This document shows, piece by piece, positions 18,957 through 34,832 of a stretch of 64,000 nucleotides of DNA. A program made the position numbers and the translations under genes. The stretch is from contig OY282354.1 of the NCBI GenBank assembly GCA_958295485.1, positions 1,054,001 through 1,118,000 on the forward strand. The letters run 5' to 3'. Each line of letters opens with the position of its first letter. Positions within the stretch are counted from its first letter, which is position 1. The notes below the pieces were generated by a model. It saw only the letters and a list, made by a program, of their open reading frames with translations, did not search any database and had not been told where the DNA came from. This DNA comes from an uncultured Gammaproteobacteria bacterium (GTDB taxonomy: Bacteria; Pseudomonadota; Gammaproteobacteria; Eutrophobiales; Eutrophobiaceae).

Positions 18957-18973
18957 TATCAGCGAACGTGAAA

Positions 18974-21364
18974 ATGGATACCAGCCAGATTTTCCCCCGT
19001 TTCGGCAACTTCCTGTTCAACAACAGAAAATTCGTATTGGCCGTCATCTTTTCGATTACGGCCTTTTTTGCATGGCAGATCCCGGCGGTCCGAATGTTGT
19101 CGGATTTTGCCGACCTGCTGCCCCAGGAACACCCTTATATACAACTGCATAACAGTATCCGCGATACCTTCGGGGGCGCCAATATTATCGTCATGGCCAT
19201 GGAAGTGGAGGAAGGCACTATCTTCACCAATGATTCCCTGGACAGGATTCACCGTATAACGCAAAAGCTGGACACCGTATCCAACATCAACCACGACCTG
19301 GTGAGCAGCCTGACCCACCGCAATACCCGCAAGATATTCCTGACGCCGGATGGAACCATACGCTCGCAAAACTATTATGACCCGCACCATGATGAATACA
19401 GCGGAGAGCAACTGGCCAAGATTCAAAGGGACGTGCTGGCAAGCACCAACGTCTATGGCCTGCTGGTTTCCCCTGATATGAAATCGGCCCTGATCAAGGG
19501 AACGCTGAATGAAGGCCAGCTTGATTATGGCAAGGTATTTGAAGAATTGCAGGAGATTCGGGCGTCTGAAGCCGCGCCCGGGGTAAAGATACATGCAACC
19601 GGCCATCCGGTGCTGGTGGGCTGGGTGGATTCCTACAGCGGCGATATCCTGCTTATATTTTTTTATACAATACTAATCGTCCTGGCAATCCTGATCTTCT
19701 ACTCGCGGCGCTTGTACGGCATCCTGTTGCCGTTGCTTGGCATGATATTGACCAGTATTTGGGGCGTGGGTTTCATGGGGGTATTCGGTTATAACCTGGA
19801 CCCGTTGATGCTGGTTGTGCCGTTTCTTATTTCAGCCCGCGCCATGTCCCACGGCATCCAGAAAATGGAGCGGTATTTTCTTGAATTATCCCGTACCGGT
19901 GAGAAGGTGTCGGCGGCCCGTAATACTTTTAACGCCTTGTTCAGGCCCGGCGCGTTAGCTATTGTGGCGGACGCCTCGGCTCTCTACCTCATCGGGCTTG
20001 GTTCCGTGCCGATTAATGACAAAATGGCCGTTTATGCATCTTTCTGGGCGGTGTGCATGGTGGTCACGGTGTTGATCGTGGTTCCCATGTTGCTGGCGGA
20101 GTTGCCCAGGCCCAAGAACGTGGCCGTCAAGCATACGGTGATACGGAGTATTTTTCCCAAGTTCGCCCAGGTTGTCGGGACGAGCAGGCGCTCGAGGGGA
20201 GTGTTAATCACCTGTCTCGTGATCGCCTGTTGCGCGACTTATTTCAGTTCCTGGGTAGAGATCGGTGAACCGGAGCCGGGTTCACCGCTGCTCTATCGCG
20301 ATCATGATTTTAATATTTCGTCGACGGCCATAAACGACAGATTTCCGGGCGCTGAGGAATTATTCATTATCGCCCGCGCCGATGAGATTGGGGGGTTGAA
20401 AAAACCGGAAATCATGAAAGCCCTGGCGGATTTCCAGAACCACATGATGCTGGATCCAAAACTTGGTGGCGTAAAAGGGGTAAATAACCTGCTCACTCAA
20501 GTGAATCAAATGACCCGGAATAATGACCCGCGCTGGGCGGTGATTCCATCCATCGATCAAAATATCGGTGGCTTGTTGTTCATGTTCATGATGTCCTCGC
20601 CGACCTCGGGCGCATTGCTGGAATATATCGATACTGATGACCGGTTGGCCAATATGGTTTTCTATTATAAAGACCATACCGGCGAGACCATCCGGCGCGC
20701 CATATACATGGCCAAGGAATGGATAGAAACCAAAGGCAGGGATATCGAAGGTTTACACCTTGACTTGGCGGGGGGGCCCGTCGGCGTTACCGCAGCCATC
20801 AATGAAGAGGCCTTTGAAACCAACGTGATCGTCGTGCCGGCCGTGCTGATCCTTATATTAGGCTTTACGCTATGGTTTTACGGCTCGTTTCATTCCGGTT
20901 TCATGATGCTGGTATCCATGTCGTTCGCCACCACGTTGACCTACGCCTGCATGGGAATATTGAAAATGGGGCTGAACGTCAACACCGTACCGATGATCGC
21001 GGTTGGGATAGGTCTCGGCGTGGATTACGCTATCTACATGATGGACCGGATCAAGGAGGAAATGCACGTGGCCAAAGACGTGCAGGACGCTATCCGGCGG
21101 GCGGTCAGCACTACCGGTGTCGCTATTGCCTTGACGGCTACGACCCTGGTCGGCGGCATCATAATGTGGGTGTTTATTTCTGAATTGCGTTTCCAGGCGG
21201 ATGCCGCGCGGTTGTTGATTATCATGTTGGTCATGAACATGGCGTCAGCCATGTTCCTGGTGCCGGCGTGGGTGAATATCTTCAAACCGAAATTTATCAT
21301 GGATGCGGCGAAAGAGCGTTGGGCGGAAGGCGAAGGTTCCACGGTTGATGAGATTGAGGATTAA
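18974..21364 (+). CDS. RND/MMPL-family transporter
   Basis: This protein of about 796 residues has two repeated halves, each with a periplasmic loop and a transmembrane bundle. TM1 is FVLAVIFSITAFFAWQIPAV. The first cluster includes ILLIFFYTILIVLAILIFYS and GILLPLLGMILTSIWGVGFMGVFG, and the second includes VIVVPAVLILILGFTLWFYG, MAVGIGLGVDYAIYMMDRI and IALTATTLVGGIIMWVFI. The pattern is that of the MMPL/HpnN branch rather than tripartite AcrB pumps. It is proton-driven by family knowledge and usually moves lipids or hydrophobic molecules. I use the ATG at 18974; a GTG at 18968 is possible. It lies in one operon with the lipoprotein and upstream of the promoter for the DUF1302/DUF1329 pair. Confidence 0.92.
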   Translation: MDTSQIFPRFGNFLFNNRKFVLAVIFSITAFFAWQIPAVRMLSDFADLLPQEHPYIQLHNSIRDTFGGANIIVMAMEVEEGTIFTNDSLDRIHRITQKLDTVSNINHDLVSSLTHRNTRKIFLTPDGTIRSQNYYDPHHDEYSGEQLAKIQRDVLASTNVYGLLVSPDMKSALIKGTLNEGQLDYGKVFEELQEIRASEAAPGVKIHATGHPVLVGWVDSYSGDILLIFFYTILIVLAILIFYSRRLYGILLPLLGMILTSIWGVGFMGVFGYNLDPLMLVVPFLISARAMSHGIQKMERYFLELSRTGEKVSAARNTFNALFRPGALAIVADASALYLIGLGSVPINDKMAVYASFWAVCMVVTVLIVVPMLLAELPRPKNVAVKHTVIRSIFPKFAQVVGTSRRSRGVLITCLVIACCATYFSSWVEIGEPEPGSPLLYRDHDFNISSTAINDRFPGAEELFIIARADEIGGLKKPEIMKALADFQNHMMLDPKLGGVKGVNNLLTQVNQMTRNNDPRWAVIPSIDQNIGGLLFMFMMSSPTSGALLEYIDTDDRLANMVFYYKDHTGETIRRAIYMAKEWIETKGRDIEGLHLDLAGGPVGVTAAINEEAFETNVIVVPAVLILILGFTLWFYGSFHSGFMMLVSMSFATTLTYACMGILKMGLNVNTVPMIAVGIGLGVDYAIYMMDRIKEEMHVAKDVQDAIRRAVSTTGVAIALTATTLVGGIIMWVFISELRFQADAARLLIIMLVMNMASAMFLVPAWVNIFKPKFIMDAAKERWAEGEGSTVDEIED

Positions 21365-21391
21365 TTTTTTGGAAAAAAGTAGCGGAAGTGA

Positions 21392-21419
21392 TTGAGATCA
21401 GCAGAAAAAACGTTATAAT
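21392..21419 (+). promoter_or_regulatory. Sigma70 promoter of the DUF1302 operon
   Basis: TTGAGA at 21392-21397 and TATAAT at 21414-21419 are spaced by 16 bp. The predicted start site (about 21426) falls inside the ATATCGATAT palindrome, a classic position for a repressor operator. Confidence 0.65.
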
Positions 21420-21460
21420 TCCAAAATATCGATATTTTTCAGTGCCAATAACGTACGTTA
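21406..21460. promoter_or_regulatory. Operator-like palindromes before the DUF1302 gene
   Basis: AAAATATCGATATTTT (21423-21438) is a perfect 16-bp palindrome centred at 21430.5. A weaker site, AAAACGTTATAA, is centred at 21411.5, exactly 19 bp away as at the other two loci. A third perfect palindrome, TAACGTACGTTA, lies at 21449-21460 and may be a separate regulator site. Confidence 0.6.
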
Positions 21461-21485
21461 ATACAGTAGAAGGGGGGATGAATTG

Positions 21486-23528
21486 ATGAATATCCGCAGA
21501 GTTGCTCTTACCTTGTTGTCGAGCGCGATGACGTGTTTCTTCGTCATGGCGCCAATGCAGGCATCAGCCTGGAATTCCAGGGACGGCACCTGGGAACTCC
21601 ATGGTTTTGTCGATAACACCTATCACAACCGGGATGACTATGGCATCACCAAGGAACGGGTTCGCGGTCAGCTGGAGTGGTCGAAGATTTTCAAGCCGAC
21701 GGGCCTGTTCTCCGAGCTCTCTTTTCACGGGACCCTCAGGGCCACCTACGACGGGGTGTATGACCTGAACGATGACGAATTTGGCGACCGGTCCGGGGGG
21801 GCTGTTTTCGGCTCCAATTCCGGCCTGCCAGGTTCTGTCAATGGTTTGCAAACCCCTTGGGCATCGTCACCGGTCACCGCGAACAATCCTAACCTGCCTG
21901 GCGGGGGCGGATTTGGCATTGATACCGGGATCAATCCCAATGCCGGTTTGAAGAAAGTGGGTAGTGAACTTGGTTCCCGCAATAACAACGGTGAATTCGG
22001 TGGGGGGCTGGAGTTCTTTACTCCCACGCGGCCCTGCAACGTGGACTCCCGCGGTTGTATCCCGGGTTACATGGATGCGGACGCGGATGACCTGCGTTTC
22101 CCCGAGTTCACTGATGACCATGGCTGGTTGCGGGAGATTTATATCGATGCCACCATGCCGGTGGGCAAGGGCGATGAGATCAACTTCCGGGTAGGCCGCC
22201 AGCAGATCGTCTGGGGCAGAACCGACTTGTTCCGCGTGCTGGACCAGGTCAATCCCATTGATTTCTCCATTCAGAGCATCTACGAGGAGTTTGAAGACAG
22301 CCGTATTCCCCTGGGGATCTTCTCCGCCGAATACCGCGCCGGCGCGGTCGGCGCCTTTGACGACCTGAACTTCCAGGTGATCTGGAACTTCGAGAAATTC
22401 CGTCCGAACACGCTGGGACAGGGCGGCCAACCTTATAACATACTGCTGGCGGGTGATTTGTTTCGGGCATTGAAAAATTGCTGGGACAATGGCTGCACGG
22501 TCAGTAACTTTGCCACCGGACTGGTGCCGGGTGGCAACCTGGCTACCGATTTTCCAGCGCAGGTTATCGGTATTCGGGATGCCCACCTGCCGGGCTGGGA
22601 CATGGACCAAGGGGGTGTGAGACTGGAAGGCGTGTTCAGGAGCGTGGGTTTCTCGGTGAATGCCATGACGTTTTACTCGCAACTGCCTTCATTGCGTGGC
22701 GGGATTCCTGCAAAGAATGCTTTCCTGGCGCCCGGGGCAGCGCATCCCATAGTGCCTGATCCGACCGAGGTCGGTGGCCTGTTCAAGCCACGACCTTATC
22801 TCCCGGCGTTCGACATTCACTTCCCGCGGGTCACCTTGGTGGGGGCATCCGCCGATTTTTATGTAGACCCGATAAAGTCGGCGATCCGGATGGAGGTAGC
22901 CCATACCAGCGGCGAGGAGTTTGCCGACACGTCGAAATCACGCCTGTTTTCCGAATCCGACGTGGTTCGTTGGGTGGTAGGCTGGGACCGGCCGACTTAT
23001 ATTCGCTGGTTGAATCCGAACAGGACCTTCCTGCTGTCAGGGCAGATTTTCGGCCAGCATATCCTCGATCACGAAACGCAGCTGTCACCGTTGGGCGAGG
23101 AGATAGGATTCCAGGACTGGAAGAACGGCTTTATCGGCACTTTCCTGTTCCAGGGTTTCTATGCTAACGACCGCATTCTGCCGCGCTTGATTATGGCCCA
23201 CGATTTCCGGGCAAAAGCGACTGTGCTCGGCCCGGGAGTGGATTATCTCATCAACGATAGCCTGCGCCTGATCGTCGGCGCCAATATCAAGTTAGGCACT
23301 GGCCGTCGGGTGGCTGATGACGGACGGACCTCAAATACATTTCCACCTTTTACCGCCGGGGCGGCCTGCGCTCCCCCGGATAGTGTCGCTCCCTGCTTGC
23401 CCGGCAATGAAACACCTAGTCTCGGGATTCGCAGGGGTTTCGAACCCCTGGGGCGCTTCCGTTCCGGTCCCCTGGGCATGGCGCAACATGAAGATGAGTT
23501 TCAAATACTGATCCGCTATCGCTTCTAA
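21486..23528 (+). CDS. DUF1302 family outer-membrane beta-barrel protein
   Basis: This 680-residue protein has a signal peptide (about 1-28, MAPMQASA). DUF1302 features follow: WELHGFVDNTYHNRDDYGITKERVRGQLEWSK, LREIYIDATMPVGKGDEINFRVGRQQIVWGRTDLFRVLDQVNP and a C-terminal strand HEDEFQILIRYRF ending in Phe. It is predicted to be an outer-membrane barrel. ATG 21486 is chosen over TTG 21483 because AGGGGGG lies 8 nt upstream. DUF1302 and DUF1329 genes are almost always adjacent, as here. By association with RND transporters in steroid, phenolic and lipid catabolic clusters they may move hydrophobic substrates across the envelope. Confidence 0.9.
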   Translation: MNIRRVALTLLSSAMTCFFVMAPMQASAWNSRDGTWELHGFVDNTYHNRDDYGITKERVRGQLEWSKIFKPTGLFSELSFHGTLRATYDGVYDLNDDEFGDRSGGAVFGSNSGLPGSVNGLQTPWASSPVTANNPNLPGGGGFGIDTGINPNAGLKKVGSELGSRNNNGEFGGGLEFFTPTRPCNVDSRGCIPGYMDADADDLRFPEFTDDHGWLREIYIDATMPVGKGDEINFRVGRQQIVWGRTDLFRVLDQVNPIDFSIQSIYEEFEDSRIPLGIFSAEYRAGAVGAFDDLNFQVIWNFEKFRPNTLGQGGQPYNILLAGDLFRALKNCWDNGCTVSNFATGLVPGGNLATDFPAQVIGIRDAHLPGWDMDQGGVRLEGVFRSVGFSVNAMTFYSQLPSLRGGIPAKNAFLAPGAAHPIVPDPTEVGGLFKPRPYLPAFDIHFPRVTLVGASADFYVDPIKSAIRMEVAHTSGEEFADTSKSRLFSESDVVRWVVGWDRPTYIRWLNPNRTFLLSGQIFGQHILDHETQLSPLGEEIGFQDWKNGFIGTFLFQGFYANDRILPRLIMAHDFRAKATVLGPGVDYLINDSLRLIVGANIKLGTGRRVADDGRTSNTFPPFTAGAACAPPDSVAPCLPGNETPSLGIRRGFEPLGRFRSGPLGMAQHEDEFQILIRYRF

Positions 23529-23553
23529 AAACATAAACGGAGGCTCAAGAACC

Positions 23554-24870
23554 ATGATTAAGCATATCAAGTGCATCAAATATCTGGGTGTCGCATCGCT
23601 CCTGGCGTTCAGCCTGAACGCATGGGCTGATTTCACCGAAGAAGACGTAAGAAAATCGTTCTATCCCTATGAAAACTGGACACCGGAATTTCCCGGTTAC
23701 ACGCCCGGCATGGTGATAGATAAAAATAACGTGGAACAGTTCAAGGATATCCTTGACCCGGCCCTGTATGATCACGTAAAAAACGCCGATGCCAGTTTGC
23801 AGACCAAGGAGACGGAATCCCTGGAACTGCACCCGAACTATATCAAGGCCACGCTGGAAGCAGTGAAGAATCCGCCAAAGCTGAGCGCCGACGGTCTGGT
23901 GGATAATTTTGTCGCAGGCCGGGCATTTCCGGCTGAGCCGGACGTGAATGACCCGCAGGCCGGCCTGAAACTGGCCTGGAACTACCAATACGGCTATAAC
24001 TGGGGCGATAATGCGGCGATTTCCCCGTTTTACTGGAAGTTCAGGAACGCCAAGTCGGGAAAATTAGAGCGATCCATCAAGTGGAGCTTTCATTTTCTCA
24101 ACTGGAAGCACAGGGTCAACCAGGACCCGGTGCCGGAATTCGAGGACAATCCCGCGCAATTGTTCCGTTCCGTTTATGTAAAAGCGCTGCAACCCTTCGA
24201 TATCGCCAATACGCAATTGCTTATCCACAGGTATAAAGACGACCTCAAGCGTGACGACGCCTGGCTGTACCTGGGCTTCCAGCGACGCGTTCGCCGTCTT
24301 GCCACGGGCCAGACGACCGATTCGTTCCTCGGCACCGACGTCATGATCGAGGATTTCGAGGGCTACAACAGTCGTGTATCCGACTATGACTGGAAATATA
24401 TCGGCAGCAAGAATGCCTTGCTGCCGTTCCATAACCATAATGACCTGGACTTGGCAACCGATATGCCGCCGGAACCCGACGGCTACCAGTTTATTGACGT
24501 GGACGGTTGTTTCCCCAAGACCACGTGGGAATTGCGCAAGATCTATGAATTACATGGTACTGCGAAGGACCCAAACCATCCCTTGAGCCGGCGCGTGATG
24601 TATTTGGATGCGCAAACCGCGACGATCCCGCGCCAGGCGCAATTCGACCGCAAGGGAGACCTGTGGAAGTCCTTTAGCATCTGCCAGGCCTACCCGGACA
24701 CGCACATGCCCAAGAACAAGGGCACCGGTGTATCCATCGACGATTGCTTCATGATGTATGACGTGCAGGCCCAACATTGCACGACCGGCCAGTTCAAGGG
24801 TCAACTCGACCCGAAGTTGAACCCCCCGCAGATGTTCACGGTCCAGAACCTGCGCAAGAGCGGAAGGTAA
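23554..24870 (+). CDS. DUF1329 family periplasmic protein (copy 1)
   Basis: This 438-residue protein has a signal peptide (ending LNAWA, about residue 25) and DUF1329 blocks: VEQFKDILDPALYDHVKNADASLQTKETESLELHPNYIKAT, NFVAGRAFPAEPDVNDPQAGLKLAWN, and DAWLYLGFQRRVRRLATGQTTDSFLGTDVMIEDFEGYNSR. The last block resembles LolA/LolB-like lipoprotein carriers in character, as noted for the family. A GGAGG site lies before the ATG. It follows DUF1302 by 25 bp. A divergent paralogue is encoded at 29652, so the locus carries two versions, perhaps for different substrates. Confidence 0.9.
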   Translation: MIKHIKCIKYLGVASLLAFSLNAWADFTEEDVRKSFYPYENWTPEFPGYTPGMVIDKNNVEQFKDILDPALYDHVKNADASLQTKETESLELHPNYIKATLEAVKNPPKLSADGLVDNFVAGRAFPAEPDVNDPQAGLKLAWNYQYGYNWGDNAAISPFYWKFRNAKSGKLERSIKWSFHFLNWKHRVNQDPVPEFEDNPAQLFRSVYVKALQPFDIANTQLLIHRYKDDLKRDDAWLYLGFQRRVRRLATGQTTDSFLGTDVMIEDFEGYNSRVSDYDWKYIGSKNALLPFHNHNDLDLATDMPPEPDGYQFIDVDGCFPKTTWELRKIYELHGTAKDPNHPLSRRVMYLDAQTATIPRQAQFDRKGDLWKSFSICQAYPDTHMPKNKGTGVSIDDCFMMYDVQAQHCTTGQFKGQLDPKLNPPQMFTVQNLRKSGR

Positions 24871-25073: not shown

Positions 25074-25679
25074 ATGACAGAGAGCGTTGATTTAAAGGTT
25101 TTTTTCAATTTTCGCAGTCCTTATTGTTATCTTGCCGGCAAGACCATGTTCAGCCTGGTGGATAATTATAGCGTCAATTTCATCTGGCGACCCCTGGCCG
25201 GGTGGGACGGCCGCTCAGCGCCGGAGAGAGCCAAGGTAAAAATCCCTATTACCCGGCAGGACGTGGCCCGGTGGGCAAAACGTATGAATATCCCCTGCAT
25301 TCCTCCCCCGATTACCACTGACCCAACCCCAGCGGGCGTCGGTTCCCTGTTGGCTGAAGAGCGAGGCCGTCTGCGGGAATATATTGTCGAAGTGATGAAT
25401 GCTGAATGGGGGAGTGGCCTGGACATCGGGCAACCGGATATATTACGCGGCGCCGCGGAACGCGCCGGTCTTGACGGCGCCGAGTTTGAAACGGCATTGT
25501 CTGACCCGGTAAAACAAAAAACCCTGGGAGATAATTGGCATGAGGCCCGGGAGACCGGCGTCATCGGCGTGCCGACGTTTGTCATTGGCGATCAAATCTT
25601 CTGGGGCAATGACCGGATTGATTTCGTGCATGAGCATCTGTGTGAACTGGGGTTGAGAAAGACTTTAAAGACTTTTTAG
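25074..25679 (+). CDS. 2-Hydroxychromene-2-carboxylate isomerase-like (DsbA/kappa-GST) protein
   Basis: This 201-residue DsbA-family thioredoxin-fold protein has the N-terminal FFNFRSPYCYLAGK, the HCCA isomerase/kappa-class GST active-site region (Ser-Pro-Tyr), then VNFIWRPLAGW, and a cis-Pro loop VIGVPTFVIGDQIFWGNDRIDFVHEHL. NahD-type enzymes isomerise 2-hydroxychromene-2-carboxylate to trans-o-hydroxybenzylidenepyruvate using glutathione in naphthalene-like degradation. No naphthalene dioxygenase or aldolase is nearby, so it may isomerise another ring-fission product. It lies in the operon between DUF1329 and the RdhA-like gene. Confidence 0.82.
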   Translation: MTESVDLKVFFNFRSPYCYLAGKTMFSLVDNYSVNFIWRPLAGWDGRSAPERAKVKIPITRQDVARWAKRMNIPCIPPPITTDPTPAGVGSLLAEERGRLREYIVEVMNAEWGSGLDIGQPDILRGAAERAGLDGAEFETALSDPVKQKTLGDNWHEARETGVIGVPTFVIGDQIFWGNDRIDFVHEHLCELGLRKTLKTF

Positions 25680-25771: not shown

Positions 25772-28006
25772 ATGCGACTTTTTTCCCATAAAAACCGGGC
25801 AGCGCACCTGGGCCAGTTCCCCCTGGAAAGACTGGCAAGAACAGGTTCAAATATCGAGTATCCCGCAACCCGAAAACATCGCGCCATAACGGTAGAAGCG
25901 CCGGACAACCCGTTATCCCTGGCTAATGCCTTTCGCGAATACATCGATTTATTCGACCGGATGCGCTTGGGCGACCCTGCTTCGAGGCAGGCGCCTATTC
26001 CGTCAGATCCGGTGGAACGCGCAAACCACCTGAAGGCTGCCTGCTACAACCTGGACGTAAGCATGGCGGCGACCTGCGCCATACCAAAACAGGCGATCCT
26101 GGAACAACCTGTTATTAACGAGTCACTGACAAACGCGCAAGAGAAAGAGTATCTTGCCGGTTCCGCTTCGAATGTCATGGCGGAAACCAGTGTCAGGGAA
26201 GGGCGGGAGGCTTGGCGGCGTTCTTTGGAAAATACCGGAAAGGGATTTGATCATACCCATGCGCTTGTCCTGCTGGTCGAGTATGCCAGGGACCCGGAAC
26301 CCGGTATTGAAAGCGAAACCTGGTTGATGGGAACCCAACCGCAACGGGCTGCCGTCAGGGCGGCGGAGGCCGCCGCCGTGATGGTGAATTACATTCGCAT
26401 ACTGGGTTTCGAAGCGATGCTGCATACGGCGACAGCGACGGACTTGGACCTCGACAGCCTGTTGCTTTGCAGCGGCCTGGGTGAAATCAATAACAAGAAC
26501 GGCAGTGAGACGGTAACCAATCCTTACCTCGGCGATCGATTCGGCCTGGCCGTGGTTTCAACAACCATGGAGATAATGGCGGATCAACCCCTGGCTGAAA
26601 GAGGCTTCAAGGCTACGGTGAAATCCCATGGCCCGGGTTGGTGGTTGGGCCTGGGCGGAACGCGACCAGGCTATAAGGGCAGGCTGTTCAAAAACAGGCC
26701 GTTTCACCTGGGACCCTATCCCATGGAGAAATTAAAGCCGCAGGAAAAAGCCACTACCCTCATCGACAAGCCAAACGTGCCGCGCATCCCGAAGCGGCAT
26801 GACATGTTCATCCGCGCGGCCCTGGGCGACCTGGGTGAAAAGACACAGAAAGAGCTGGAAAACTTCCGCATGATTACCAAGTCCCCCTATGGTCACGCCA
26901 TGGCGCCACCGCTGGGGGCCATGGTCCCGCTCCAGTACGGCAAGGAAGCGGAGCAGGCAATGCCGGGAACGGACGATCCGAAAAAAAACGCCGAGGCGGT
27001 AAAAGCCGCCCTGTATTATTTAGGCGCGGATATGGTGGGTATCTGTGAATTGCCGGACTATGCCTGGTATTCACATGACCTGGACGGCTCGGAGATAAAA
27101 CCCTATCATAAATACGGGATTGCCATATTAGTTGACCAGGGATACGAAACCATGGAGGGCGCCAGTGGCGATGACTGGATCAGTGGCGCGCAAAGTATGC
27201 GCGCCTACCTGCGGGCCCAGTTGATAGGCGGCATTGTCGGCAGCCATATCCGTTCTCTCGGCTATCCGGCCCGTGGTCACAGCGTCATGGACCAGGATGT
27301 CCTGCACATACCGATTATACTGGAGGCAGGTCTGGGTGAGTTGAGCCGGATCGGTGAACTCGTACTGAACCCCTACGTGGGACCGCGGTTCAAATCAGGC
27401 GTCATCACTACCGACATGCCGTTGTTGCCGGACAAGCCCATTGATTTTGGCTTGCAGGACTTTTGCGAAAAATGCACCAAGTGTGCCCGTGAATGCCCCT
27501 GCCAAGCCATTCCTTATGGCGACAAGATCATGTTCAACGGCTATGAAATGTGGAAACCGGACGTGGAGAAGTGCGCCCGTTATCGTATTACCAACGCCGC
27601 CGGTTCCATGTGCGGGCGTTGCATGAAGACCTGTCCCTGGAATATCGAAGGGGTATTGGCGGAACGACCTTTCCTGTGGGCGGCCATGAACCTGCCTTTT
27701 ACCCGGAAATGGATCGCCAGGCTGGATGACAAGGTCGGCAACGGTTTGATCAATCCCGTGAAAAAATGGTGGTGGGACCTGGATTCGGATGAAAACGGCA
27801 ACATTATCCGGGCCGGGAAAACCAATAAACGACAATTTTCCAGGCGTACAAACATGGATCCGGCGAAGCAAAGCATGGGTTGTTTCCCGGCTGAAACGGC
27901 ATCGCCGCCGTTATCGGAGCATCCGATAATCCTGGATCGGCGGATAGCTGTTAAAAAGTACAAAAGCGCTGAGATTCCGGGCAAATACAAAGCTCCAATA
28001 AAATAA
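25772..28006 (+). CDS. Reductive dehalogenase-like cobalamin/Fe-S protein (cytosolic, catabolic type)
   Basis: This 744-residue protein has a C-terminal ferredoxin-like module with two [4Fe-4S] sites (CEKCTKCARECP, Cys 565/568/571/575; Cys601; CGRCMKTCP, Cys 614/617/621). Before it are two tandem nitroreductase-like domains: about 90-300 is a degenerate copy of about 400-560 (NYIRILGFEAMLHT vs SHIRSLGYPARGHS; TNPYLGDRFGLAVVSTT vs LNPYVGPRFKSGVITTD). This matches the NpRdhA-type, oxygen-tolerant, non-respiratory reductive dehalogenases with a vestigial N-terminal repeat. There is no Tat signal and no RdhB anchor gene, which fits a cytosolic enzyme. It may remove halogen (or another ring substituent) from an aromatic ring, or reduce another bond; a cobalamin-binding assignment needs structural modelling. 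Confidence 0.8.
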   Translation: MRLFSHKNRAAHLGQFPLERLARTGSNIEYPATRKHRAITVEAPDNPLSLANAFREYIDLFDRMRLGDPASRQAPIPSDPVERANHLKAACYNLDVSMAATCAIPKQAILEQPVINESLTNAQEKEYLAGSASNVMAETSVREGREAWRRSLENTGKGFDHTHALVLLVEYARDPEPGIESETWLMGTQPQRAAVRAAEAAAVMVNYIRILGFEAMLHTATATDLDLDSLLLCSGLGEINNKNGSETVTNPYLGDRFGLAVVSTTMEIMADQPLAERGFKATVKSHGPGWWLGLGGTRPGYKGRLFKNRPFHLGPYPMEKLKPQEKATTLIDKPNVPRIPKRHDMFIRAALGDLGEKTQKELENFRMITKSPYGHAMAPPLGAMVPLQYGKEAEQAMPGTDDPKKNAEAVKAALYYLGADMVGICELPDYAWYSHDLDGSEIKPYHKYGIAILVDQGYETMEGASGDDWISGAQSMRAYLRAQLIGGIVGSHIRSLGYPARGHSVMDQDVLHIPIILEAGLGELSRIGELVLNPYVGPRFKSGVITTDMPLLPDKPIDFGLQDFCEKCTKCARECPCQAIPYGDKIMFNGYEMWKPDVEKCARYRITNAAGSMCGRCMKTCPWNIEGVLAERPFLWAAMNLPFTRKWIARLDDKVGNGLINPVKKWWWDLDSDENGNIIRAGKTNKRQFSRRTNMDPAKQSMGCFPAETASPPLSEHPIILDRRIAVKKYKSAEIPGKYKAPIK

Positions 28007-28066
28007 TTCTGTATTTTTATTTGTGTCCATCTGCATAATCCACGGATTAATAAGGGGGGGATTGAT

Positions 28067-29629
28067 ATGAGCGCCATACTCGAAAAAGAAGTTGCAAAAA
28101 ATGCTGTTCGGCCATACACCGGCGCTGAGTTTCTTGAGGAATTAAAAGACGACCGGGAAATCTGGATCTATGGTGAGCGGGTCAAAGACGTAACCACGCA
28201 CCCCGCTTTTCGCAATCCTGCACGGATGATGGCGCGGCTTTACAACGCCCTGCATAACCAGGCGGAGTACCCACACTTGCGTACGGATACGGACACCGGC
28301 AACGGCGGCTTTACCCACCCTTATTTCAAGGTGGCGCACACCCGCGAGGACGTGATTGCGCAACGTGAAGCAATCGCCCAATGGGCAAGGTTGACTTACG
28401 GCTGGATGGGCCGCACTCCCGATTACAAGGCCAGCCTGATGCTGACGCTGGGATTCAACCCGACGTATTTTGGTGACTATGCCGATAATGCGCGGAGCTG
28501 GTATAAAAATGCGCAGGAACGCGTCCCGTTTTTGAACCATGCCCTGGTTAATCCCCCGGTTGATCGCAATAAATCCCACGAAGAGATCGAAGACGTCTAT
28601 ATGCACTGCGTGAAAGAAACCGACGAGGGCATTATTATCTCCGGCGCAAAAGTAGTTGCCACGGGGTCGGCGTTGACCCACTACAATTTTTTAGGTCAAT
28701 ACGGGCCGATACCCGTTAAAGACAAACGCTTTGCCATATCCGGCATGTTGAAAATGAATACCCCGGGAGTAAAGCTGCTCTGTCGTCCCTCCTATGCCTA
28801 TGCGGCTGAAGTCATGGGCAGTCCGTTTGATAACCCGCTGTCCAGCCGGCTGGATGAGAATGACGCCATATTGATATTGGACAATGCCTTGATGCGCTGG
28901 GAGGATATTTTCATTTACCAGGACCTGGATGCGGCCAGCACTTTTTTAGGTACCTCCGGTTGGGCCTACACCTTTGCCTTTCATGGTTGTACGCGACTTG
29001 CCGTCAAGTTTGATTTTATTACCGGATTATTCATGAAGGCCCTGGAGATCACCGGCGCCAAGGATTTTCGCGGCGTGCAGGTGGCCATCGGTGAAATGCT
29101 CGTGTGGCGACACCTCTTCTGGGCCTTGTCTGACGCCATGTGCGGCATGCCCGATGATTTCAAGGGGGTGAAAGTGCCCAATGGCCATGCCGGGCACGTA
29201 TATCGAGTCCTGATGACCATGGCCTATCCCCGGGCAAAAGAGTTGATTGAGAATATGGTCGCCAGTGGTCTTATCTACCTGAATTCCCACGCTACGGATT
29301 TCAACGTGCCGGAGTTGAAGGGGTATTTGAATAAATACCTGCGCGGTTCTTACGGCCATGATGCGGAAGATCGGGTCAAGACCATGCGCCTGTTATGGGA
29401 CGCCATAGGTACGGAGTTTGGTGGCCGCCATGAACTGTATGAGCGTAACTATTCCGGCAATAATGAAAATATCCGCATCGAAGCATTATGGGAGGCGCAG
29501 GGTTCCGGCCTGGATAAACAACTCAAAGACTTTGCCCAGCAGTGCATGGATGAATATGACACCAACGGTTGGACCGTGGCGGACCTGATAAATCCCCATG
29601 ACGTCAATCTATTTATGAAAAAGAATTAA
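28067..29629 (+). CDS. HpaB/TftD-type FADH2-dependent phenol monooxygenase (copy 1)
   Basis: This 520-residue member of the 4-hydroxyphenylacetate 3-monooxygenase oxygenase family (HpaB, PvcC, chlorophenol monooxygenases TftD/HadA) shows PYTGAEFLEELKDDREIWIYGERVKDVTTHPAFRN at the N-terminus, the central KVVATGSALTHYNFLGQYG, FDNPLSSRLDENDAILILDNALMRWEDIF and GRHELYERNYSG. It uses reduced flavin from a separate reductase and O2 to ortho- or para-hydroxylate phenols. No HpaC/TftC reductase gene is in the window. AGGGGGGG precedes the ATG. A near-identical second copy starts at 32045. Followed by intradiol dioxygenases, it may feed them a di- or trihydroxybenzene such as hydroxyquinol. Confidence 0.93.
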   Translation: MSAILEKEVAKNAVRPYTGAEFLEELKDDREIWIYGERVKDVTTHPAFRNPARMMARLYNALHNQAEYPHLRTDTDTGNGGFTHPYFKVAHTREDVIAQREAIAQWARLTYGWMGRTPDYKASLMLTLGFNPTYFGDYADNARSWYKNAQERVPFLNHALVNPPVDRNKSHEEIEDVYMHCVKETDEGIIISGAKVVATGSALTHYNFLGQYGPIPVKDKRFAISGMLKMNTPGVKLLCRPSYAYAAEVMGSPFDNPLSSRLDENDAILILDNALMRWEDIFIYQDLDAASTFLGTSGWAYTFAFHGCTRLAVKFDFITGLFMKALEITGAKDFRGVQVAIGEMLVWRHLFWALSDAMCGMPDDFKGVKVPNGHAGHVYRVLMTMAYPRAKELIENMVASGLIYLNSHATDFNVPELKGYLNKYLRGSYGHDAEDRVKTMRLLWDAIGTEFGGRHELYERNYSGNNENIRIEALWEAQGSGLDKQLKDFAQQCMDEYDTNGWTVADLINPHDVNLFMKKN

Positions 29630-29651
29630 TCCGTAGCATCTACGGACAAAC

Positions 29652-30947
29652 ATGACGTTGCGAGCCCTGATTTTTGCATTTTTCTGCCTGTTGATTAACT
29701 CCGGCGTTCTGGCGGCGGACATTGTCGAGCGTTCGTTCAGCATTGATCGGGAAAAAATGAGCTCGCTCAATCCCGCCCCCGGAACGGTGATTACGAAAGC
29801 GAACGTTAAAGCATTCAGTCATATCCTGACGCCGAAATTCATTGACCTGATCAGCGAAGAATTTCTGACGATTGCCGTGGGTGAACCTTTATCCTTCGAC
29901 CCGCACCCGGCTTATGTCGAAGCCACCGAACGGCATCTTGGAAAAACCAGGCTTGGAGATAAACCGGGCATCATATTGAACTATATTGCCGGCCGGCCGT
30001 TTCCCCGGGAGCCGCAACTTGATGATCCCCGCGCGGGTGACAAACTGGCCTGGAATTTTCGCTACACCTATGCCTATGACGGCGGTGAGGTCGCCAGTTT
30101 TTATTGGCAATATAAAGACATAAGGAAAAATAAAATCGAAAGAAGGTTATCATTCTACGCAAGTTCATTAAGGTTCATGCACCGGCATGTCCAGGAGCCT
30201 GTCCCGGACTTGCCCGGGAATCCATCGCAGATTTTCAATGCCCTTTACCTGAACGTGTTGTCGCCACCGGATTTGCGCGGGACGCAATTACTGGTGCAAC
30301 GATTGGAAGATGACACCAGGCAGGAACAAACCTGGCTTTATCTTGCCACCCACAGGCGGGTCCGTCGCCTGGCGTCAGGACAAACCACGGATGCCTTCCT
30401 GGGCAGCGATATAATGATAGAAGATTTTCTCGGATATAACGGTCGTATCATGGACCAGAAATGGACCTACAAGGGTGAAGCCTGGGTATTGTTGCCTTAC
30501 TTTAATCACGATCAGCAACAATTGGAAGAGGCGGGACATCAGCAGGACGGCTATAAATTCGTCGGCTTCCATGGCAAGGGAGACTGTTTCCCAAACGTAA
30601 CCTGGCATGTACGCAAAGCGTATATACTGGAAGCGGAGCCTTATTGGAAACAACATCCCCTGTCAAAACGCCGTTATTATGTGGATGCCCAGACAATGCA
30701 ACCGGCTTACGGGCATATCTTTGACCGTTCGGGTAATTTGTGGAAGACAGGCATGGGGGCATACTCACATCCGGACAGGCATCACCCTGCCAATCATGGG
30801 TCAGGCGCGCCCGTTATAGATGCGGCATCCATGATCGATATCCAGGCCATGCACTGTACGACCCTGCAATTCAAGGCGACGGTGTCGAAAAAAAGATTGC
30901 GGGAAACGGATTTTACCGTACAGGCATTACGCGCCAAAGGGCGTTAG
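29652..30947 (+). CDS. DUF1329 family periplasmic protein (copy 2)
   Basis: This 431-residue paralogue of the 23554 gene has a signal peptide (FFCLLINSGVLAA), then VKAFSHILTPKFIDLISEEFLTIAVGEPLSFDPHPAYVEAT, NYIAGRPFPREPQLDDPRAGDKLAWNFRY and TWLYLATHRRVRRLASGQTTDAFLGSDIMIEDFLGYNGR. It is in the operon 22 bp after hpaB copy 1, without a DUF1302 partner beside it. A 145-bp internal piece of this gene (30570-30714) is found again between hpaB copy 2 and dioxygenase copy 2, showing that the gene was once duplicated along with its neighbours and then deleted. Confidence 0.88.
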   Translation: MTLRALIFAFFCLLINSGVLAADIVERSFSIDREKMSSLNPAPGTVITKANVKAFSHILTPKFIDLISEEFLTIAVGEPLSFDPHPAYVEATERHLGKTRLGDKPGIILNYIAGRPFPREPQLDDPRAGDKLAWNFRYTYAYDGGEVASFYWQYKDIRKNKIERRLSFYASSLRFMHRHVQEPVPDLPGNPSQIFNALYLNVLSPPDLRGTQLLVQRLEDDTRQEQTWLYLATHRRVRRLASGQTTDAFLGSDIMIEDFLGYNGRIMDQKWTYKGEAWVLLPYFNHDQQQLEEAGHQQDGYKFVGFHGKGDCFPNVTWHVRKAYILEAEPYWKQHPLSKRRYYVDAQTMQPAYGHIFDRSGNLWKTGMGAYSHPDRHHPANHGSGAPVIDAASMIDIQAMHCTTLQFKATVSKKRLRETDFTVQALRAKGR

Positions 30948-31058
30948 AATATCACCAGCGGTTCCCGCTAACCGGGCTATCGTGTATAAGGAAACCGGGA
31001 ATTGGCCGGCCGGGCATTATCATTACTTACGAGCGCGATTATATTTGGAGGATTGATT

Positions 31059-31934
31059 ATGCGTGATTTTACCATTGACAACCTGACGGAAATCGTCTTG
31101 GAAGAATACGGCTCCAAGACAAAAGATCCCCGGTTCAGACAAATCATCACTTCATTGCTTGAACATCTCCATGCTTTTGTGAAAGACGTAGAGTTGACCG
31201 AAGAAGAATGGTTCAAGGCGATCATGTTTTTAACCGATACAGGCAAAATGTGCGATGACAAACGCCAGGAATTCATTTTATTGTCGGACGTATTGGGTGT
31301 CTCCATGCTGGTGGATGCGATTAATCACCCCAAGTCAGGCAGGGGGACGGAATCGACCGTATTGGGACCTTTTTACGTAGCGCACGCGCCGGAGTACGAA
31401 AACGGCGCCAGCATCATTAAACAGGACCAGGGTGGAGAAGTGGCATTGGTCCAGGGCAAGGTGACCGACCCTGACGGCGACCCCATTGCCGGCGCCAAAT
31501 TGGATGTATGGCAAACCGCCGCCAACGGCTCTTATGATGTACAGGATCCGACTATGCCTGAATATAACATGCGCGGTATTTTTACTACGGATACGGAAGG
31601 CAACTATGCTTTCGTCACGGAAAAACCCCTGTCTTATTCCGTCCCGACGGATGGTACCGTTGGCGTCCTGCTCAATGCCAGCGGCCGCCACGCCATGCGC
31701 CCCGCCCATATCCACTTTATTGTTTCGGCGGATGGCTATGAATCACTGACTACCCACGTGTTTTCTGCGGGAGATGAATACCTGGATTCAGATGCGGTGT
31801 TTGCCACCAAGAGTTCGTTAATCGGAGATTACAAAGAATCAAATGACACTGACAAGGCGGCGCAATACAATATCTCCGCGCCGTTCAGCCACCTGCGCTT
31901 CGACATGGGCCTGATGCCGGTGGGGGCCGGGTGA
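31059..31934 (+). CDS. Intradiol ring-cleavage dioxygenase, hydroxyquinol 1,2-dioxygenase type (copy 1)
   Basis: This 291-residue non-haem Fe(III) intradiol dioxygenase has an N-terminal catechol-dioxygenase helical domain (FRQIITSLLEHLHAFVKDVELTEEEWFKAIMFLTDTGKM, DDKRQEFILLSDVLGVSMLVDAIN) and a catalytic beta domain with ligands Tyr159, Tyr193, His217 and His219 (RPAHIHF). The motif set and length fit hydroxyquinol or chlorocatechol 1,2-dioxygenases, which open the ring between the two hydroxyls. The ATG at 31059 is preferred over 31002 because GGAGG lies 7 nt upstream and the family starts here. It is the first of three tandem copies. No cycloisomerase or maleylacetate reductase is present in the window. 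Confidence 0.93.
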   Translation: MRDFTIDNLTEIVLEEYGSKTKDPRFRQIITSLLEHLHAFVKDVELTEEEWFKAIMFLTDTGKMCDDKRQEFILLSDVLGVSMLVDAINHPKSGRGTESTVLGPFYVAHAPEYENGASIIKQDQGGEVALVQGKVTDPDGDPIAGAKLDVWQTAANGSYDVQDPTMPEYNMRGIFTTDTEGNYAFVTEKPLSYSVPTDGTVGVLLNASGRHAMRPAHIHFIVSADGYESLTTHVFSAGDEYLDSDAVFATKSSLIGDYKESNDTDKAAQYNISAPFSHLRFDMGLMPVGAG

Positions 31935-31945
31935 CGCCAGGAAGG

Positions 31946-32044: not shown

Positions 32045-33607
32045 ATGAGCGCCATGCTCGAAAAAGAAGCTGCAAAAAATGCTGTTCGGCCATACACCGG
32101 CGCTGAGTTTCTTGAGGAATTAAAAGACGATCGGGAAATCTGGATCTATGGCGAGCGGGTCAAAGACGTAACCACGCACCCCGCTTTTCGCAATCCTGCA
32201 CGGATGCTGGCGCGGCTTTACAACGCCCTGCATAACCAGGCGGAGTATCCACACTTGCGTACGGATACGGACACCGGCAACGGCGGCTTTACCCACCCTT
32301 ATTTCAAGGTGGCGCACACCCGCGAGGACGTGATTGCGCAACGTGAAGCAATCGCCCAATGGGCAAGGTTGACTTACGGCTGGATGAGCCGCACTCCCGA
32401 TTACAAGGCCAGTCTGATGCTGACGCTGGGATTCAACCCGACGTATTTTGGTGACTATGCCGATAATGCGCGGAGCTGGTATAAAAATGCGCAGGAACGC
32501 GTCCCGTTTTTGAACCATGCCCTGACCAACCCCCCAGTCGATCGCAATAAATCCCACGAAGATATCGAAGACGTCTATGTGCACTGCGTGAAAGAAACCG
32601 ACGAGGGCATTATTATCTCCGGCGCAAAAGTAGTTGCCACGGGGTCGGCGTTGACCCACTACAATTTTTTAGGTCAATGCGGGCCGATACCCGTTAAAGA
32701 CAAACGCTTTGCCATATCCGGCATGTTGAAAATGAATACCCCGGGAGTAAAGCTGCTCTGTCGTCCCTCCTATGCCTATGCGGCTGAAGTCATGGGCAGT
32801 CCGTTTGATAACCCGCTGTCCAGCCGGCTGGATGAGAATGACGCCATATTGATATTGGACAATGCCTTGATGCGCTGGGAGGATATTTTCATTTACCAGG
32901 ACCTGGATGCGGCCAGCACTTTTTTAGGTACCTCCGGTTGGGCCTACACCTTTGCCTTTCATGGTTGTACGCGACTTGCCGTCAAGTTTGATTTTATTAC
33001 CGGATTATTCATGAAGGCCCTGGAGATCACCGGCGCCAAGGATTTTCGCGGCGTGCAGGTGGCCATCGGTGAAATGCTCGTGTGGCGACACCTCTTCTGG
33101 GCCTTGTCTGACGCCATGTGCGGCATGCCCGACGATTTCAAGGGGGTGAAAGTGCCCAATGGCCATGCCGGGCACGTGTATCGAGTCCTTGTGACCATGG
33201 CTTATCCCCGGGCGAAAGAGTTGATTGAGAATATGGTCGCCAGTGGTCTTATCTACCTGAATTCCCATGCTACGGATTTCAACGTGCCGGAGTTGAAGGG
33301 GTATTTGAATAAATACCTGCGCGGTTCTTACGGCCATGATGCGGAAGATCGGGTCAAGACCATGCGCCTGTTATGGGACGCCACAGGCACGGAGTTTGGT
33401 GGCCGCCATGAACTGTATGAGCGTAACTGTTGCGGCAATAATGAAAATATCCGCATCGAAGCATTATGGGAGGCGCAGGGTTCCGGCCTGGACAAACAAC
33501 TCAAAGACTTTGCCCAGCAGTGCATGGATGAATATGATACCAACGGTTGGACGGTGGCGGACTTGATAAATCCCCATGACGTCAATCTGTTCATGAAAAA
33601 GAATTAA
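32045..33607 (+). CDS. HpaB/TftD-type FADH2-dependent phenol monooxygenase (copy 2)
   Basis: This 520-residue protein differs from copy 1 at about a dozen positions only (for example WMGR to WMSR, GQYG to GQCG, RNYSG to RNCCG, ALVN to ALTN). All family blocks are intact, so it should be active on a phenolic substrate with reduced flavin. The ATG at 32045 corresponds to the start of copy 1; a TTG six bases upstream is ignored. Its ribosome-binding site (TAGGGGGATT) comes from a REP-like element rather than the native leader. The near identity implies a recent duplication or gene conversion; the Tyr-to-Cys change near GQ(Y/C)G lies in a family-conserved block and could affect activity. Confidence 0.93.
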   Translation: MSAMLEKEAAKNAVRPYTGAEFLEELKDDREIWIYGERVKDVTTHPAFRNPARMLARLYNALHNQAEYPHLRTDTDTGNGGFTHPYFKVAHTREDVIAQREAIAQWARLTYGWMSRTPDYKASLMLTLGFNPTYFGDYADNARSWYKNAQERVPFLNHALTNPPVDRNKSHEDIEDVYVHCVKETDEGIIISGAKVVATGSALTHYNFLGQCGPIPVKDKRFAISGMLKMNTPGVKLLCRPSYAYAAEVMGSPFDNPLSSRLDENDAILILDNALMRWEDIFIYQDLDAASTFLGTSGWAYTFAFHGCTRLAVKFDFITGLFMKALEITGAKDFRGVQVAIGEMLVWRHLFWALSDAMCGMPDDFKGVKVPNGHAGHVYRVLVTMAYPRAKELIENMVASGLIYLNSHATDFNVPELKGYLNKYLRGSYGHDAEDRVKTMRLLWDATGTEFGGRHELYERNCCGNNENIRIEALWEAQGSGLDKQLKDFAQQCMDEYDTNGWTVADLINPHDVNLFMKKN

Positions 33608-33816: not shown

Positions 33817-34719
33817 ATGCGTGATTTTACCATTGACAATCTGACGGAAATCGTCTTGGAAGAATACGGCTCCAAGACAAAAGATCCCCGGTTCAGGCAA
33901 ATTATCACTTCATTGCTTGAACATCTCCATGCTTTTGTGAAAGACGTGGAGTTGACCGAAGAAGAATGGTTCAAGGCGATCATGTTTTTAACCGATACAG
34001 GCAAAATGTGCGATGACAAGCGCCAGGAATTCATTTTGTTGTCGGACGTATTGGGTGTCTCCATGCTGGTGGATGCGATTAATCACCCCAAGTCAGGCAG
34101 GGGGACAGAATCGACCGTATTGGGACCTCTTTACGCAGAGGGCGCGCCGGAGTATGAAAACGGCGCCAGCATCATTAAACAGGGCCGGGGTGGAGAAGTG
34201 GCGTTAGTCCAGGGCAAGGTGACCGACCCTGACGGCGACCCCATTGCCGGCGCCAAATTGGATGTATGGCAAACCGCCGCCAACGGCGTCTATGATACAC
34301 GGGATCCAACTGTGCCTGAATATAACATGCGCGGTATTTTTACTACGGATACGGAAGGCAACTATGCCTTCGTCACGGAAAAACCCGTATCTTATTCCGT
34401 TCCGACGGATGGCGCCGTTGGCGTCCTGCTCAATGCCAGCGGTCGCCACGCCATGCGTCCCGCCCATATCCACTTTATTGTTTCAGCCGATGGCTATGAA
34501 TCACTGACTACCCAGGTGTTTTCTGCGGGAGATGAATACCTGGATTCAGATGCGGTGTTTGCCACCAAGAGTTCGTTAATCGGAGATTACAAAGAATCAA
34601 ATGACGCTGACAAGGCGGCGCAATACAATATCTCCGCGCCGTTCAGCCACCTGCGCTTCGACATGGGCCTGATGCGGAAGATCGGGTCAAGACCATGCGC
34701 CTGTTATGAGACGCCATAG
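33817..34719 (+). CDS. Intradiol dioxygenase, hydroxyquinol 1,2-dioxygenase type (copy 2, chimeric 3' end)
   Basis: This 300-residue second copy of the intradiol enzyme keeps the metal ligands (NGVYDTRD, PVSYSVPT, RPAHIHF). The body is nearly identical to copies 1 and 3. The last 14 residues after FDMGLM (RKIGSRPCACYETP) do not belong to the family: they are an out-of-frame reading of the hpaB 3' region, fused at TGATGC (34670-34675). The catalytic domain is complete before this point, so function is probably kept. The ATG at 33817 has a GGAGGA site 7 nt upstream; the longer frame from 33703 reads through the DUF1329 fragment and is rejected. Confidence 0.9.
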   Translation: MRDFTIDNLTEIVLEEYGSKTKDPRFRQIITSLLEHLHAFVKDVELTEEEWFKAIMFLTDTGKMCDDKRQEFILLSDVLGVSMLVDAINHPKSGRGTESTVLGPLYAEGAPEYENGASIIKQGRGGEVALVQGKVTDPDGDPIAGAKLDVWQTAANGVYDTRDPTVPEYNMRGIFTTDTEGNYAFVTEKPVSYSVPTDGAVGVLLNASGRHAMRPAHIHFIVSADGYESLTTQVFSAGDEYLDSDAVFATKSSLIGDYKESNDADKAAQYNISAPFSHLRFDMGLMRKIGSRPCACYETP

Positions 34720-34789: not shown

Positions 34790-34832
34790 ATTACCATTAT
34801 TTACGGGCACGATTATATTTGGAGGATTGATT

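Follow-up and report, generated by a model that had tools for sequence, protein, structure and literature searches.

An NpRdhA-type reductive dehalogenase without a fused reductase encoded in an aromatic ring-cleavage gene cluster of an uncultured gammaproteobacterium

Reductive dehalogenases (RdhAs) related to the protein described here fall into several known groups. NpRdhA from Nitratireductor pacificus pht-3B (structures 4RAS and 6ZXU) is a proven dehalogenase with a described pocket (PMC7565698). Its gene lies near ferredoxin oxidoreductase and ferredoxin genes, and candidate ferredoxin partners failed in vitro (PMC10463259). JtRdhA and other self-sufficient RdhAs (about 1070–1090 aa) carry a fused reductase domain; JtRdhA debrominates 2,6-dibromophenol, 2,6-dibromo-4-methylphenol and 3-bromo-4-hydroxyphenylacetate and is active both anaerobically and aerobically (PMC10463259). 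PceA represents the respiratory enzymes, and a short marine reductive dehalogenase has been characterised as oxygen-sensitive (PMC13101508). The debrominating sponge bacteria found in the literature consulted are anaerobic Desulfoluna (PMC12203066).

The gene studied here, RDH1, was located in a 64,000-nt stretch of DNA (the window) at positions 25772..28006 of the plus strand, as given in the earlier sequence-only reading, and encodes a protein of 744 aa without internal stops. RDH1 scored 206 bits against TIGR02486, the reductive dehalogenase core profile (cut-off 160.35), and matched NpRdhA (4RAS) in phmmer with an E value of 4.7e-174. The structure prediction proposed as a check gave a model resembling NpRdhA over its whole length (Z 46.3, 2.5 A, 675 residues aligned; 40–44% identity in structure alignments), whereas PceA and other respiratory RdhAs shared only the cobalamin/Fe-S core (Z 24–25 over about 300–330 residues) and lack the extra N-terminal repeat. 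The N-terminal half had been described as a degraded copy of the central domain, and BLASTP indeed aligned residues 2–274 with 304–557 (25% identity, 281 columns, E 3e-20), with A194 opposite Y479 and G258 opposite K541. No match to RDH1 was found in PHROGs, nor any Rfam match at the gathering level in the window. The Pfam Dehalogenase family PF13486 matched neither RDH1 nor anything in the genome search and controls; since the aligned sequence of NpRdhA was also unmatched, this family does not define the NpRdhA-type subgroup and was set aside.

The catalytic residues Y479, K541 and R605 correspond to Y426, K488 and R552 of NpRdhA, and the equivalents of the substrate-binding S422 (S475 in RDH1) and of M423 are also retained. 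The two predicted [4Fe-4S] motifs were confirmed as C565/C568/C571/C575 and C601/C614/C617/C621. Each of these eight cysteines, like the Y479/K541/R605 set, was found in every one of the 98 full-length rows of an RdhA alignment built from matches above 60 bits, from which L081–L085 and L011 were excluded as repeats or fragments and which still contains copies of the same gene (e.g., L001/L124, L002/L128, L086/L097 and L089/L102). Since all members of the family share these catalytic residues, they are no proof of the RDH1 substrate. Differences from NpRdhA included K307, replaced by L362 in an entrance loop two residues longer, P311 (R366), A419 (G472) and N452 (V505). The residue equivalent to L362 was alanine in the fused RdhAs displayed in the entrance-residue comparison.

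RDH1 and NpRdhA are alike in length and in having neither a Tat signal nor a fused reductase. No twin-arginine motif was present within residues 1–60 (the N-terminus reads MRLFSHKNRA, against MRLYSNRDRP in NpRdhA), and there is no room for rdhB because the flanking gaps measure 92 and 60 nt and lead directly to a DsbA-like gene and hpaB. The absence of a Tat signal and of rdhB agrees with the previous reading; with both missing, assignment to the respiratory reductive dehalogenases was rejected. The catalytic part equals that of the self-sufficient RdhAs, but Pfam detected no Fer2 domain in RDH1 and the C-terminal reductase with its [2Fe-2S] domain is missing, while the fused relative L048 has Fer2; a self-sufficient enzyme was likewise ruled out. 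In the tree, for which L035, L086–L090 and three short RdhA rows were additionally excluded and fused rows were trimmed to 740 aa from the N-terminal motif, the fused clade (34 rows) and the RDH1 clade lay on one side of a branch with SH-aLRT 96 and NpRdhA was placed on the opposite side. Sequence, predicted fold and pocket residues thus uphold the NpRdhA-type assignment, and RDH1 belongs to the catabolic reductive dehalogenases of this type that carry no fused reductase, a group already known.

The cluster around RDH1 is bordered at its 5' edge by a GntR/FCD regulator gene on the minus strand (10520..11185), and all following genes are on the plus strand. A glutathione S-transferase of the Cys type with an SPCA motif (11376..12158) and an HbpS-like protein (PF03928; 12168..12617) precede the genes for the meta-cleavage lower pathway, which encode 2-hydroxymuconic semialdehyde dehydrogenase (12642..14132; TIGR03216, 857 bits, cut-off 693), 2-oxopent-4-enoate hydratase DmpE (14375..15160; TIGR03220, 428 bits, cut-off 409), acylating acetaldehyde dehydrogenase DmpF (15208..16116; TIGR03215, 465 bits, cut-off 282), 4-hydroxy-2-oxovalerate aldolase DmpG (16127..17167; TIGR03217, 549 bits, cut-off 286) and 2-oxo-3-hexenedioate decarboxylase DmpH (17164..17952; TIGR03218, 429 bits, cut-off 351). 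Then come YCF48-like, MMPL transporter, DUF1302 and DUF1329 proteins (17949..24870), probably an uptake/export set, and a DsbA/2-hydroxychromene-2-carboxylate isomerase-like protein (25074..25679; 2IMD, E 5.4e-20). The glutathione S-transferase noted earlier as a nearby gene is therefore present, but it lies 14 kb upstream and the DsbA-like gene is the immediate 5' neighbour.

Downstream of RDH1, an HpaB/SgcC-like FAD-dependent aromatic monooxygenase (28067..29629), a second DUF1329 paralogue (29652..30947) and a hydroxyquinol-type intradiol dioxygenase (31059..31934) are followed by a recent tandem duplicate of hpaB (32045..33607; 97.6% identity over 1600 nt to copy 1) and two further dioxygenase copies (33817..34719 and 34827..35729; 95% and 94% DNA identity to copy 1). 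The monooxygenases had been called TftD/HpaB-type; the HpaB part stood, with 633 bits to 4OO2 and 593 bits to HpaB, whereas the TftD part was rejected, as TftD (3HWC) gave only 93 bits. We take 4OO2 to be SgcC, although the structure file names it chlorophenol-4-monooxygenase. The substrate of these FADH2-dependent proteins may differ from that of HpaB because they scored 676 against the NCBIfam HpaB-2 equivalog, below its cut-off of 885. Dioxygenase copy 1 matched PnpC (281 bits) and 6-chlorohydroxyquinol dioxygenase (261 bits) better than the best catechol dioxygenase (163 bits), and the dioxygenases are of the hydroxyquinol type, in agreement with the earlier reading. A methylsuccinyl-CoA module follows, namely a 2-methylfumaryl-CoA (mesaconyl-CoA C1-C4) isomerase-like protein (35752..36978; 8APQ, 478 bits; TIGR04253, 517 bits, below the cut-off of 725), an itaconyl/mesaconyl-CoA hydratase-like protein (37049..37957; 8KHG, 187 bits) and a methylsuccinyl-CoA dehydrogenase-like protein (38057..39724; 6ES9, 615 bits over residues 7–545; 8CIW, 300 bits). 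A phenol hydroxylase, an extradiol dioxygenase, a flavin reductase and an electron donor for RdhA were absent from the cluster. As the sequence-only reading had stated of a dedicated partner, none of the 39 window proteins scanned with Pfam was a ferredoxin or ferredoxin reductase, which sets RDH1 apart from the gene of NpRdhA.

RDH1 orthologues from four congeners were 80–84% identical and shared the gene order where the contig was long enough: from gntR through the methylsuccinyl-CoA dehydrogenase gene in G005 (contig C114), where genes of this module also follow the dioxygenase with other ORFs in between, and from gntR to the dioxygenase, where the contig ends, in G001 (C74). HpaB copy 1 was 93–94% identical in congeners. 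Among the best 80 of 515 RDH1 relatives, the HpaB/dioxygenase link was confined to congeners (three loci, L001, L002 and L012) and a phenol hydroxylase link outside the genus was found once. In that locus, L005, phenol hydroxylase genes immediately precede the gene of a relative 65% identical to RDH1, and catechol 2,3-dioxygenase, 2-hydroxymuconic semialdehyde dehydrogenase and DmpH are encoded no more than 7 kb after it. Clustering of neighbour families in 73 loci revealed no neighbour common to the whole RdhA family; the largest cluster, short-chain-dehydrogenase-like by its N-terminus, comprised 12 loci.

The same genome carries a phenol hydroxylase/catechol 2,3-dioxygenase operon (C1:3.196–3.203 Mb), and this operon together with L005 strengthened the suggestion that the gene set recalls halophenol degradation. 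The genome also encodes a DmpP-like reductase and a Fer2 protein (C1:3.197–3.199 Mb) and an HpaC/RutF-like reductase (C1:1009624). The search for cobalamin synthesis or salvage detected a cobalamin riboswitch, a BtuB-like receptor, a BtuF-like binding protein, an ABC ATPase and CobO, and judging by its uptake genes the bacterium imports cobalamin. CbiC was absent from all four genus genomes searched, which is a hint of salvage and no more. BluB (TIGR02476) was not used, as the genus genomes gave only sub-cut-off nitroreductase relatives and the model matched 14 of 14 controls too.

The reading that we favour, with good but incomplete confidence, is that RDH1 is a cytoplasmic corrinoid/[4Fe-4S] enzyme that would dehalogenate ortho-halophenols and feed aerobic ring cleavage. 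We infer what it acts on, that it tolerates oxygen and where its electrons come from. Imported cobalamin would be bound base-off and receive two electrons through the two [4Fe-4S] clusters; as in NpRdhA, the halogen ortho to the phenolic OH would contact cobalt, with the phenolate held by S475, K541 and R605 and the proton supplied by Y479. NpRdhA binds a substrate carboxylate through the entrance lysine K307; as RDH1 has L362 instead, its substrates are likelier to be uncharged (bromo)phenols than halo-hydroxybenzoates. The dehalogenated phenol may be hydroxylated by the phenol hydroxylase of the genome or by HpaB. Ring opening may then fall to catechol 2,3-dioxygenase or to the hydroxyquinol-type enzyme, and the DmpC/E/F/G/H-type proteins may complete the breakdown, with methylated products entering the methylsuccinyl-CoA module. 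Since the cluster encodes no donor, RDH1 probably draws its electrons from a shared ferredoxin or oxygenase reductase. As its gene stands among genes for the oxygen-dependent breakdown of the remaining ring, RDH1 probably allows natural brominated phenols to serve the bacterium as food. Aerobic operation is not automatic, given the oxygen sensitivity of the characterised short marine enzyme.

A single substrate does not explain the presence of both the meta-cleavage and the hydroxyquinol/methylsuccinyl-CoA genes. The latter, placed directly 3' of the dioxygenase, and the tandem amplification of hpaB and the dioxygenase could point to RDH1 as a true reductive dehalogenase of a halogenated methyl-hydroquinone or cresol-like compound (cf. 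the acceptance of 2,6-dibromo-4-methylphenol by JtRdhA). HpaB would turn the dehalogenated product into a methylhydroxyquinol, whose intradiol cleavage, followed by reduction and thiolysis, would give methylsuccinyl-CoA for conversion to citramalyl-CoA by the three downstream enzymes; the meta-cleavage genes would be a separate unit sharing the locus. This route is rather unlikely: no maleylacetate reductase was found (an Fe-ADH search gave two unspecific, distant matches), no 3-oxoadipyl-CoA step was seen, plain phenol is indicated both by L005 and by the lower-pathway dmp genes, and the methylsuccinyl-CoA genes may be chance neighbours.

The structural relationship of the model to QueG (Z 14.4) raises another alternative, in which an RdhA-like corrinoid reductase catalyses a different reaction, such as deoxygenation of an oxygenase-made epoxide or arene oxide, as QueG does with epoxyqueuosine. 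It would account for a second RdhA, RDH2, which adjoins paaABCDE and thus stands beside phenylacetyl-CoA epoxidase; RDH2 lay by paaA in four of the six genus genomes that have it, and in none of seven stretches outside the genus, several of them short (L097, L100, L101, L102, L147, L148 and L149). However, RDH1 keeps the phenolate-binding Ser/Lys/Arg and the Tyr donor of NpRdhA, and its sequence resembles QueG much less (TIGR00276, 26 bits, cut-off 200, against 206 bits for TIGR02486), so that epoxyqueuosine reductase itself was excluded and the wider reading is very improbable. Slighter still is the chance that the gene has decayed or has no functional link to the aromatic-degradation locus in which it lies, as the missing electron-transfer partner might suggest; the frame is intact, the active site invariant and the gene retained in the congeners, with its neighbours where the contigs are long enough.

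Beyond the favoured dehalogenation of ortho-halophenols, the two paralogues may, more tentatively, perform the first steps of two aerobic ring-activation routes, RDH1 leading to phenol hydroxylase/meta-cleavage and hydroxyquinol cleavage and RDH2 to phenylacetyl-CoA epoxidation. In such a hybrid pathway, reductive first and oxygenative afterwards, natural brominated phenols and arylacetates derived from bromotyrosine would be the substrates, and the DmpP-/PaaE-like FAD/[2Fe-2S] reductases belonging to the oxygenases would donate the electrons. Selection between neutral and carboxylated substrates would depend on the entrance residue, which is Leu in RDH1, Arg in RDH2 and Lys in NpRdhA. The RDH1 family is already known; the interest lies in how the pathways are connected. 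After the in vitro failure of the NpRdhA candidates, an RdhA coupled in this way would be well suited to showing which cellular partner reduces the enzymes that have no fused reductase. If true, the coupling of catabolic RdhAs to oxygenase pathways would provide an aerobic route for sponge organobromines; near relatives of the source bacterium include a marine-sponge symbiont, and the genus has at least one sponge-derived member.

The RdhA-like protein encoded at 25772–28006 of the plus strand (RDH1; 744 aa) was assigned to the reductive dehalogenase family TIGR02486 (206 bits, cut-off 160.35), with the model of the epoxyqueuosine reductase QueG giving 26 bits only. Its best solved relative was the catabolic enzyme NpRdhA (4RAS; E 4.7e-174), and the respiratory PceA matched far more weakly (E 2.6e-27). 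The AlphaFold2 model (mean pLDDT 82.5, pTM 0.90), built with 31 sequences from the window and the loci, had NpRdhA chains as its best Foldseek match (E 6.7e-67). In VIA-align, the model was superposed on NpRdhA with Z 46.3 (2.5 Å, 675 residues), compared with about 24–25 for PceA-type structures and 14.4 for QueG. The predicted structure thus agreed with the NpRdhA-type assignment of the sequence-only reading. RDH1 is a further member of an already known enzyme kind, with dehalogenation and the halogen removed being predicted. Its oxygen tolerance and electron donor are putative. The genome encodes a haem-copper oxidase (COX1) and one HpaC/RutF-like flavin reductase, the latter 44 kb before the window.

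Alignment mapping placed S422, M423, Y426, K488 and R552 of NpRdhA at S475, M476, Y479, K541 and R605 of RDH1, all kept, and F291 and F310 at the equally kept F346 and F365 (residue roles according to PMC7565698). The catalytic Tyr/Lys-Arg set, named as a check in the sequence-only reading, and the two [4Fe-4S] motifs described there were both found: Y479, K541 and R605 were invariant in the 98 full-length rows of an alignment including some copies of the same gene, as were the eight cluster cysteines, with S475 kept in 97 rows and M476 in 96. The N-terminal half had been described as a degraded, NpRdhA-like repeat, and residues 2–274 indeed aligned with 304–557 (25% identity, 281 columns, E 3e-20), with Ala194 and Gly258 at the positions of the catalytic Tyr and Lys; of the cluster cysteines, the two that were checked lay beyond the aligned repeat. 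NpRdhA has the same internal-repeat architecture.

The differences from NpRdhA were F290→M345, K307→L362, P311→R366, A419→G472 and N452→V505. A finer alignment showed that the entrance loop of RDH1 and its close kin is two residues longer than that of NpRdhA and carries Leu in place of Lys307, whereas RDH2, the second RdhA of the genome, has Arg at this place and a loop of NpRdhA length. Because K307 of NpRdhA forms a salt bridge to the carboxylate in one bound form of bromo-hydroxybenzoate (PMC7565698), RDH1 may prefer uncharged phenols and RDH2 carboxylated ones. Two catabolic subfamilies are represented by NpRdhA and the reductase-fused JtRdhA (PMC10463259; PMC7565698); JtRdhA removes bromine from 2,6-dibromophenol at 6.8%, from 2,6-dibromo-4-methylphenol at 8.2% and from 3-bromo-4-hydroxyphenylacetate at 99.3% of its best rate (PMC10463259).

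In a tree of 93 rows, made by a quick method without bootstrap, RDH1 and its congeners formed a starred set (100), close to non-fused proteins of Gammaproteobacteria (L003, L004, L005, L034, L008 and L010). A starred branch (SH-aLRT 96) separated this set, together with the fused NADPH-type clade of 34 rows (100), from RDH2, actinobacterial proteins and NpRdhA, the last on a long branch. RDH1 is therefore a non-fused RdhA grouping with fused ones, not with NpRdhA.

The cluster around RDH1 begins with gntR, a Cys-type GST, HbpS, 2-hydroxymuconic semialdehyde dehydrogenase and DmpE, DmpF, DmpG and DmpH; all five meta-cleavage enzymes passed their NCBIfam cut-offs. YCF48, MMPL, DUF1302, DUF1329 and DsbA/HCCA-isomerase-like genes precede RDH1, which is followed by HpaB, DUF1329, a hydroxyquinol-type dioxygenase and tandem copies of HpaB and dioxygenase. 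The region 28056–35748 (+) represents a recent tandem amplification of two HpaB and three intradiol dioxygenase genes (97.6% identity over 1600 nt and 94–96%, respectively). A module for methylsuccinyl-CoA to citramalyl-CoA adjoins these ring-cleavage genes at 35752–39724 (+), and consists of 2-methylfumaryl-CoA isomerase-, mesaconyl-CoA hydratase- and methylsuccinyl-CoA dehydrogenase-like genes. The isomerase-like protein scored 517 bits, below the cut-off of 725, and matched 8APQ with 478 bits.

RDH1 or its orthologues (80–84%) occurred in five of the seven genomes of the genus, its own included, with a fragment in G002, and RDH2 in six. In G005 (contig C114), the gene order was kept from gntR to the methylsuccinyl-CoA dehydrogenase, apart from four additional ORFs, one of them typA-like, that interrupt the final three genes; in G001 (C74), it was kept from gntR as far as the dioxygenase. 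HpaB and dioxygenase were single-copy in G005, with one each in G001 before the contig end. Outside the genus, the RDH of locus L005 (65% identity to RDH1) directly follows the genes of a multicomponent phenol hydroxylase, that of its reductase included, and precedes catechol 2,3-dioxygenase (439 bits, cut-off 320), 2-hydroxymuconic semialdehyde dehydrogenase and DmpH. At L004, YCF48, MMPL, DUF1302, DUF1329 and two GST-like genes precede RDH. Among the loci of the best 80 of 515 relatives, some of them short, phenol hydroxylase was near RDH at one (L005) and HpaB or dioxygenase at three, all congeners (L001, L002 and L012). The link between RDH1 and oxygenase genes is strong within the genus and thin outside it.

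The upper phenol pathway was located outside the cluster, at 3.196–3.205 Mb of contig C1, comprising phenol hydroxylase subunits, two separate proteins with Fer2, one of which is a reductase, an alpha/beta hydrolase and catechol 2,3-dioxygenase (424 bits, cut-off 320). The search for cobalamin synthesis or salvage revealed one cobalamin riboswitch (93 bits, cut-off 31.5) ahead of a BtuB-like receptor (TIGR01779, 529 bits, under the cut-off of 600) and CobO (218 bits, cut-off 168). Nearby were an ABC ATPase, a permease-like ORF and a BtuF-like protein (189 bits, under the cut-off of 234); CbiC was found in none of the four genomes searched.

RDH2 (738 aa, NpRdhA-type; L091:8855–11071, C1:2.65 Mb) lies near the phenylacetyl-CoA epoxidase operon paaABCDE. 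An acetate-type symporter, a DUF485-like ORF and an acyl-CoA ligase were also nearby. The link was present in G000, G001, G003 and G005 and absent from the 9-kb contig of G004; the G006 contig stops at RDH2 and was outside this comparison. In G005, paaA–E and paaX, each over its cut-off, directly follow RDH2; in G000, three ORFs separate RDH2 from paaA, and paaX had no match in the fetched stretch around RDH2. In other genera of the family (L097, L101, L147 and L148), Rieske-oxygenase-like ORFs with 27–35% identity to the protein encoded at 39807–40931 of the window lie near RDH2-like genes. A third Rdh-like protein, a short one (327 aa; L092:9321–10304, C1:2.256 Mb) scored 127.5 bits with TIGR02486, under the cut-off, and keeps the Tyr, with Arg and Phe replacing the catalytic Lys and Arg.

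The point of interest is the wiring: two RdhA paralogues of one genome are each placed within or next to a separate pathway of aerobic ring activation. No report of RdhA wired to such oxygenase operons was found among open-licence papers, covered mostly as listings and, for PMC12203066, PMC10640470 and PMC12756903, as passages. Putative bhbA homologues are widespread in the Roseobacter clade (PMC13101508). Matching sequences connected G001 (L002) with isolate jk18x1bzbins.61 and G005 (L001) with APA_bin_93. MAGs with the jk18x prefix originate from Caribbean Ircinia sponges (PMC9531527), and the APA and RHO3 bins might, as a guess, be sponge bins too.

Elsewhere in the window, four tandem xanthine/uracil-type permeases (84–91% identical) are encoded at 42557–50595 (+), each with a C-terminal HATPase_c_2-like stretch under the Pfam cut-off, and two large TPR-sulfotransferase proteins adjoin each other at 1168–5260 (−).
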